Of a stretch of DNA of 64,000 bases, positions 50,680 through 52,500 are shown in pieces (the first letter of the stretch is position 1; each line of letters starts with the position of its first letter). Source of the stretch: Nitrospirota bacterium (lineage in GTDB: Bacteria > Nitrospirota > Thermodesulfovibrionia > Thermodesulfovibrionales > JdFR-88); assembly GCA_021789935.1 (NCBI GenBank), contig JAJYIR010000003.1, positions 1 through 64,000 on the forward strand, given 5' to 3'. Both the position numbers and the translations under genes were made by a program. A model generated the notes under the pieces. That model was not told the origin of the DNA and did no database searches. It saw only the letters and a program-made list of their open reading frames with translations.

Positions 50680-51255
50680 CTACCAGTTCTCCCCCAACAG
50701 CTCGAAATGCGCCCTGGGGTGGTCGCAAGCGGGGCATTTGTCCGGTGAATCCGCGCCCTCATGGATATAGCCGCAATTCCTGCACTTCCATCTCTGCGGG
50801 TTTTCACGGCTAAAGACCCGGCCCTTCCCGATATTTTCCAACAGGTCAAGGTAGCGTTTCTCATGCTGGGTCTCGGCCACGGCTATCGCCCTGAAGACCG
50901 CAGCGATAGCGGCAAAACCCTCTGTGGAGGCCACCTTTGCAAATTCGGGGTACATCACCGTATGCTCATGGTTTTCCCCAGACGCCGCCTCCCTCAGGTT
51001 TGCACCGGTGTCCCCAATCATTCCGGCGGGGAAAACCGCATGTACTTCCGCCTCTCCGCCTTCAAGGAACTTGAAAAGCCGCTTGGCGTGCTCCTTTTCG
51101 TTGTCCGCTGTCTCCAGGAAGATGGCCGCTATCTGTTCATAGCCTTCCTTCTTTGCCTGGGAGGCAAAATATGTGTACCGGTTCCTGGCCTGGGATTCTC
51201 CGGCAAAGGCGGTCAGCAGGTTCTTTTCCGTCTTTGTCCCTTTAACGCTTTTCAT
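50680..51255 (-). CDS. Rubrerythrin
   Basis: Non-haem diiron peroxidase, 191 residues; reduces hydrogen peroxide in the cytosol of anaerobes and microaerophiles. The ferritin-like four-helix domain (1-145) has EKNLLTAFAGESQARNRYTYFA, ETADNEKEHAKRLF, FAAIAAVFRAIAVAETQHEKRY, supplying the ExxH iron ligands. The C-terminal rubredoxin domain (about 150-191) has CRNCGYIHEG and CPACDHPRAHFE, binding Fe(SCys)4. Divergent from the DUF2892 gene with a 118-bp gap. The neighbourhood, with two TGA-containing redox-type genes, suggests an oxidative-stress or thiol/selenol setting. Confidence 0.96.
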   Translation of the reverse strand: MKSVKGTKTEKNLLTAFAGESQARNRYTYFASQAKKEGYEQIAAIFLETADNEKEHAKRLFKFLEGGEAEVHAVFPAGMIGDTGANLREAASGENHEHTVMYPEFAKVASTEGFAAIAAVFRAIAVAETQHEKRYLDLLENIGKGRVFSRENPQRWKCRNCGYIHEGADSPDKCPACDHPRAHFELLGENW

Positions 51256-51373
51256 CCATCACCTCGGCAATTTATTTTCACCATATTTTACTTAACACAG
51301 CCCGTTCTTTGAAAGGTACATAAAGCCATACCGCCCGTCTTTTTTTGTGCTATCCTGCAAGAAGGAGGCATAT

Positions 51374-51580
51374 ATGAAAAACGTAGGAGGCGTCGACAAG
51401 GTTTTCAGGATAGCAGCCGGGATCATCCTTGCACTGCTTGCGGCATTTGCCGCGATGGCCCCCGGGGTCAGAATTATTCTCATTGCGCTTGCCGTCATTG
51501 CGCTATTTACGGGGATCTTCGGATTTTGACCGCTGTGGAAGGTGCTCGGGATAAGCACCTACAAAAAGAAACAAGCCTGA
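51374..51580 (+). CDS. DUF2892/YgaP-like membrane protein, candidate selenoprotein (in-frame TGA at 51527)
   Basis: Read conventionally the gene stops at TGA 51527-51529 after 51 residues. Family members continue GFCPLYxLLGIxT; here the frame reads GF-TGA-PLWKVLGISTYKKKQA and ends at TGA 51578-51580, total 68 residues, the usual size. TGA therefore replaces the conserved Cys (residue 52), the classic sign of selenocysteine. A 7-bp hairpin follows at 51540-51560. Two hydrophobic helices (about 12-30 and 32-50) put residue 52 just at the membrane face. AAGGAGG precedes ATG by 6 nt. Alternatives are a nonsense mutation of TGC/TGT or a read error; intact downstream codons argue against old decay. 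Function of DUF2892 proteins is unknown; some are fused to rhodanese. Confidence 0.7.
51540..51560 (+). promoter_or_regulatory. SECIS-like hairpin in the DUF2892 gene
   Basis: AGGTGCT (51540-51546) pairs perfectly with AGCACCT (51554-51560); the 7-nt loop is CGGGATA. The loop begins 18 nt after the TGA (17 nt between), and G is the second loop base. This fits the published bacterial SECIS model (loop 16-37 nt from UGA, small loop, G in the first two loop bases). The T run starts 24 nt later, so it is not a normal terminator. Confidence 0.6.
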
Positions 51581-51701
51581 AGCATTTTTTGTTTTTTTTA
51601 TTTTTTTTTGCAGGCGGTCATGTTTTTCTTCCCGCCCGATTTTGCCGTCAACTGGGCACGGACCGTAAATTCCCGGTCCATACTTGCGTTCAGCCTGAAA
51701 C

Positions 51702-52164: not shown

Positions 52165-52500
52165 TTGCCCATGAAGATTGCCCTGCAAATTGATTGCTAC
52201 CTTTCCTCCGGGTGCGGCTCGAAGGAGGCCCTGCGTGAAAATATCAGCCGGGCACTGGCCCTGGAAGGAGTTTTTCCTTTTCCGGCGGAGGTGAAATTCC
52301 ACCTGCTCGATAACGAAAAGGCGCTTGCCATGGGGTTGACCGGCTCGCCCTCCGTCATCATCAACGGGGAGCAGTTGCAAAAAACCGCAGGCGCTGCCGG
52401 TTCCACATGAAGGATGTTCATCGACGGGTCTGGAAGACTCTCCAATGTGCCTTCGGTTGACACGCTGCGGCAGGCAATAAGGAAAACAAAAATGCCGTAA
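52165..52500 (+). CDS. Thioredoxin-fold protein, candidate selenoprotein (in-frame TGA at 52408)
   Basis: Conventional reading stops at TGA 52408-52410 after 81 residues. The frame continues RMFIDGSGRLSNVPSVDTLRQAIRK to TAA 52498-52500 (111 residues). The family, small thioredoxin-fold proteins often labelled alkylmercury-lyase-like or thioredoxin family, reads GSPTI..VNG..., then S-x-SCR-(L/V)-Y, then a PSVE-LR-AL helix. TGA sits exactly at the SCR cysteine (residue 82). The N-terminal DCYLSSGC replaces the usual GCPN site. Start TTG 52165 is 8 nt after GGAGGAC; ATG 52171 is possible. A second SECIS-like hairpin lies at 52426. The extension ends 7 nt before the next gene, filling an otherwise empty gap. 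Confidence 0.68.
52426..52440 (+). promoter_or_regulatory. SECIS-like hairpin in the thioredoxin-fold gene
   Basis: GGGTCT (52426-52431) pairs with AGACTC (52435-52440), six pairs including one G-T, around the loop GGA. The loop starts 22 nt after the TGA (21 nt between) and begins with GG, fitting the bacterial SECIS model. The stem is short, so the evidence is weaker than for the hairpin at 51540. Confidence 0.5.

Follow-up and report, generated by a model that had tools for sequence, protein, structure and literature searches.

The 64,000-nt window analysed here (contig JAJYIR010000003.1 of a Nitrospirota bacterium, positions 1 to 64,000) carries a short gene of the DUF2892 family that is almost certainly a genuine selenoprotein gene, in which the UGA at codon 52 would be decoded as selenocysteine (Sec). 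The preliminary description of this DNA had proposed it as a candidate new selenoprotein, and this proposal is now supported by a conserved TGA, its exchange for Cys in homologues, a hairpin kept beside it and the presence of selA, selB and selD. Given that the TGA and the hairpin are both kept in related genomes, the gene looks like a member of a real selenoprotein family. The features concerned are the following.

51362-51368, plus strand: Shine-Dalgarno-like AAGGAGG just 5' of the ATG, read directly (aagaaggaggcatatATG).
51374-51580, plus strand: putative Sec-DUF2892 gene (PF11127, YgaP-like_TM), 68 aa, with two predicted membrane helices.
51527-51529, plus strand: in-frame TGA, codon 52, the proposed selenocysteine codon.
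51540-51560, plus strand: predicted bSECIS hairpin, AGGUGCU-CGGGAUA-AGCACCU.

The gene begins with the ATG at 51374 and its final stop is the TGA at 51578-51580. Read with the internal TGA as Sec, its product would be MKNVGGVDKVFRIAAGIILALLAAFAAMAPGVRIILIALAVIALFTGIFGF-U-PLWKVLGISTYKKKQA, where PLWKVLGISTYKKKQA is the tail after the TGA and Sec lies 16 codons before the end of the 68-aa product. Using a profile search, we found that this read-through product matches PF11127 over all 66 positions with 67.9 bits (E 8e-19), above the curated cut-off of 25.3 bits; the frame thus behaves as first described, meeting a TGA after 51 residues and then running through the normal family C-terminus to a second stop. 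The same genome carries two further, ordinary PF11127 genes with no such stop, on contigs C26 and C23. Searches of Rfam with positions 51300-51700 gave no meaningful match, sequence and fold searches of the PDB with the window protein gave nothing usable, and the phage records searched held no homologue of it. In the structure model, the protein forms helices at residues 4-25 and 30-48 and a short helix at 54-58, with Sec52 just after the second helix. The earlier placement of Sec52 at the membrane face is plausible from the two long predicted helices, although the confidence of the model is modest (mean pLDDT 67.6).

To describe the distribution of the TGA, we considered the family, the order and 396 genomes sampled from the phylum. 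A TGA at the same column was found in 17 genomes representing 12 genera and six families of one class, either within the order (G000, G006, G009, G010, G011, G023, G040, G068, G109, G144, G159, G160, G161, G162 and G163) or in the class beyond it (G321 and G397); G178, G187 and a second G397 copy also have one TGA each in the search table, which may be merely the final stop. Protein identity to the window protein ranges from 44 to 74% among 13 aligned orthologues, so the TGA orthologues are not near-copies. When the loci were read, the TGA was followed by PLW[K/A/S]VLG[I/V/F]ST in all 17 genomes except G006, a congener in which the TGA and the protein upstream of it remain but the canonical hairpin has been lost, its tail being altered and longer. 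This copy, the sole misfit among the 17 TGA loci, may be decaying. At the Sec column, 35 homologue sequences (including loci L103 and L056) have Cys. The Cys homologues read G[FWY]C-P-[LA]-[WY]...[LF]G[IF]-[SN]-T, so that both the family motif given at the outset, with Cys at the TGA column, and the exchange of Cys and TGA between relatives were found.

The first two codons after the TGA vary only synonymously (CCG, CCT, CCC or CCA for Pro; CTG, CTT or CTC for Leu), which argues that the region past the TGA is translated. Synonymous identity was 33% upstream (906/2733 same-residue codon pairs, from 48 to 4 codons before the TGA) and 90% over the hairpin codons +4 to +10 (649/720 same-residue codon pairs). 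Moreover, Val GTG, Ser AGC and Thr ACC are each written with one codon in 16/16 hairpin-bearing sequences. Over the same codon columns, the 35 Cys homologues showed a synonymous identity of 37% (908/2464). Such a silent-codon pattern is expected of a putative SECIS element that overlaps coding sequence, and the downstream codons are held in relatives rather than drifting.

The hairpin starts 10 nt after the TGA, with its loop 17 nt after it, and comprises a 7-bp stem and a 7-nt loop that begins with CG, i.e., with G at loop position 2, all as initially stated; its energy is about -10 kcal/mol. The published rules for bSECIS elements call for a loop of 3-9 nt, a stem of 4-16 bp, a G within the first two loop positions, a distance of 16-37 nt between the loop and the UGA, and an MFE <= -7.5 (PMC13188914), and the hairpin of the window falls within every one of these limits. 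Taken alone, its fold is only modestly unusual (z = -0.93); when the tail was recoded at random with synonymous codons 20,000 times, 4.8% of the sequences reached -7.5 kcal/mol and 2.3% matched the energy of the real hairpin. Such a hairpin by itself is therefore not rare by chance, but the comparative evidence puts the predicted element far beyond chance. A hairpin that conforms to these rules is kept directly 3' of the TGA in 16 of the 17 TGA loci, the exception being G006. Its six core stem pairs are invariant, while the optional pair that closes the loop base reads C.A in many loci, C-G in L032 and A-U in L046. Since an invariant stem yields little covariation, the case for the structure is based on the codon constraint together with the published bSECIS rules.

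These observations bear on the question of which product matters. The 51-aa truncated protein could be the main one, with readthrough giving a minor isoform or acting as a selenium switch, in which the Sec form is made with selenium and the truncated form otherwise. Sec decoding generally competes with termination, and both predicted helices are still present in the 51-aa form. We nevertheless regard this as quite improbable, because the 10 codons past the TGA are strongly conserved, which shows the extended form to be under selection.

The genome from which the window derives encodes selA (594 bits), selB (368 bits) and selD (356 bits), so that three of the four genes looked for as a check on the candidate are in place, whereas selC was not found in the draft. 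Covariance model, pattern and DNA searches of the 60 contigs detected no tRNA-Sec, the covariance hits being tRNA-Ser and other ordinary tRNAs, and none was found beside selA, selB and selD or inside selB. In one lineage of Nitrospirae, tRNA-Sec is reported to overlap selB (PMC8124441). Of 12 family genomes, 8 carry a tRNA-Sec with anticodon TCA and G73, among them two of the three congeners (G006 and G007), and tRNA-Sec is also present in G040, within the order. The simplest reading is that the absence of selC from this draft may reflect an assembly gap.

Three further observations were made on these genes. The selD of the window genome (G000:C40:37940-38863, L018) contains one in-frame TGA, and selD is therefore probably a selenoprotein gene too. 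In G009, only the 3' 29 bases of a tRNA-Sec were seen, followed by unrelated sequence (L094, C27:8649-8677), possibly an integration-site remnant. In G004, a tRNA-Sec-like RNA (L082, 1501-1596) has the anticodon GCA and T73 and fits the description of the selC* tRNA-Cys, which occurs in Nitrospirae and other bacteria (PMC7609411).

If the UGA stood for an ordinary amino acid, it would be read either as Trp through a code change or as Cys through a selC*-type opal tRNA-Cys. Decoding as Cys is favoured by the selC*-like tRNA of the relative G004 and by the selC* tRNA-Cys with UCA anticodon known in other bacteria (PMC7609411); however, the TCA-anticodon tRNAs of the family carry G73, which is of the Ser/Sec type, selA and selD are present, and SelB is indicated by the codon constraint specific to the hairpin. 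As for Trp, the window gene ends at TGA and its own Trp is TGG, so that the code is not reassigned genome-wide. Overall, we hold decoding as an ordinary residue to be very improbable. A pseudogene or sequencing error, with the TGA as a recent nonsense mutation or a misread TGC/TGT and the C-terminus still recognisable, is scarcely credible: although most homologues have Cys there, the gene is short and the G006 copy looks partly eroded, this explanation is effectively refuted by sequence conservation. Seventeen genomes from 12 genera share the TGA, the sequence 3' of it shows purifying selection with synonymous variation, and the hairpin is retained in 16/17.

Within the tree, all Sec forms fall in one clade (99/99 support), set apart from the window genome's own Cys paralogue, and within it are nested L056, L103 and a set of Cys forms from the same phylum. 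L103 comes from G417, of the same genus as the Sec-bearing G321; its codon is TGT and its stem is broken. L056 (G065) has TGC with the SECIS-like hairpin intact, and may represent a recent Sec-to-Cys change or a relic. The Sec clade appears to contain Sec-to-Cys changes, whose number and direction are inferred, given that the tree has 68 columns and weak branching and is midpoint-drawn. Changes of this kind are rare in bacteria according to a 2026 review (PMC13188914).

For the selenoprotein reading, we propose that the hairpin starting 10 nt after the UGA would recruit SelB with Sec-tRNA-Sec, and that Sec would be inserted at codon 52 by the standard bacterial route. The product would be a 68-aa two-helix membrane protein with Sec just after the second helix, where other homologues carry Cys. 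Since Sec would stand at a column where homologues have Cys, the residue is marked as reactive and is probably catalytic, and the whole DUF2892 domain would thereby gain a testable chemistry. Tentatively, Sec would most likely serve as a reactive membrane-face selenol that performs thiol/peroxide or persulfide (sulfur/selenium) chemistry.

Published hints on DUF2892 and YgaP concern sulfur. The membrane sulfurtransferase YgaP carries C64 and, within its TM domain, C159 (PMC4730233), and a DUF2892 gene of Azospira suillum is up about 10-fold during sulfide oxidation, with a minor mutant phenotype (PMC5358917). E. coli YgaP (PF11127) has the two-helix membrane domain in common with the window protein and carries a Cys (C159) within it, a likeness at the level of the domain. 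The window protein differs from YgaP in having no N-terminal rhodanese domain (68 aa, PF11127 only) and in carrying Sec instead of Cys.

With the catalogued bacterial selenoproteins (PMC13188914), the window gene shares the in-frame UGA, a bSECIS just downstream, Cys homologues and, in its genome, selA, selB and selD. PF11127/DUF2892 is, however, absent from the 119 prokaryotic selenoprotein families/subfamilies of this 2026 catalogue (PMC13188914). No model of NCBIfam 20.0 matches the Sec-DUF2892 protein, and none of the open-access papers searched mentions both a selenoprotein and DUF2892. The YeeE/YedE transporter, the MerT-like mercuric transport protein and TsoB, all in the catalogue, resemble the window protein as membrane or sulfur/metal-handling proteins with Sec, but their listed domain IDs place them in other families. 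Sec-DUF2892 thus appears to be a previously unlisted selenoprotein family that uses an already known mechanism. It would add a selenoprotein family within a domain that is widespread among bacteria and whose function is not settled, and its 68 aa illustrate that very small selenoproteins can still escape detection.

Two genes flank this locus.

50680-51255, minus strand: rubrerythrin gene, divergent, in an oxidative-stress context.
52171-52500, plus strand: second TGA-containing gene, for a thioredoxin-like GSP...U-RMF protein, with the TGA at 52408-52410.

The second TGA gene, which is strongly conserved, starts about 590 nt downstream of the Sec-DUF2892 gene. After its TGA the frame goes on with RMFIDGSGRLSNVPSVDTLRQAIRK, and the protein reads GSPSV...U-RMF. 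Matches occur in 43 of the order's 176 genomes, almost always with an in-frame TGA, and in the loci that were read the TGA lies within GF[S]-U-R[M/L][F/Y] or close variants. The best NCBIfam hit of this protein (P0002) and its orthologues is the DF family (seleno)protein NF049942, matched over nearly the full model at 36.5-55 bits, under the 70-bit cut-off. The gene at 52171-52500 probably encodes a second selenoprotein, related to NF049942. Given that a DF-family selenoprotein was predicted earlier (PMC12013277), the DUF2892 case is the newer of the two. In a more specific scheme, which we consider rather unlikely, Sec-DUF2892 would act through its membrane-face selenol on persulfide, selenide or peroxide, either at the inner membrane or across it, and would form a redox pair with this thioredoxin-like selenoprotein.

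Across the Sec loci, no family recurs in at least 3 loci, bar frames overlapping the gene itself; with a neighbourhood that is not conserved, no operon partner could be named. Several individual neighbours are oxidative-stress or redox genes. Besides the rubrerythrin gene of the window, G023 has a Fur-family regulator, catalase, nitroreductase and superoxide dismutase, G144 has superoxide dismutase and DsrC, and both G109 and G040 have DJ-1/PfpI.
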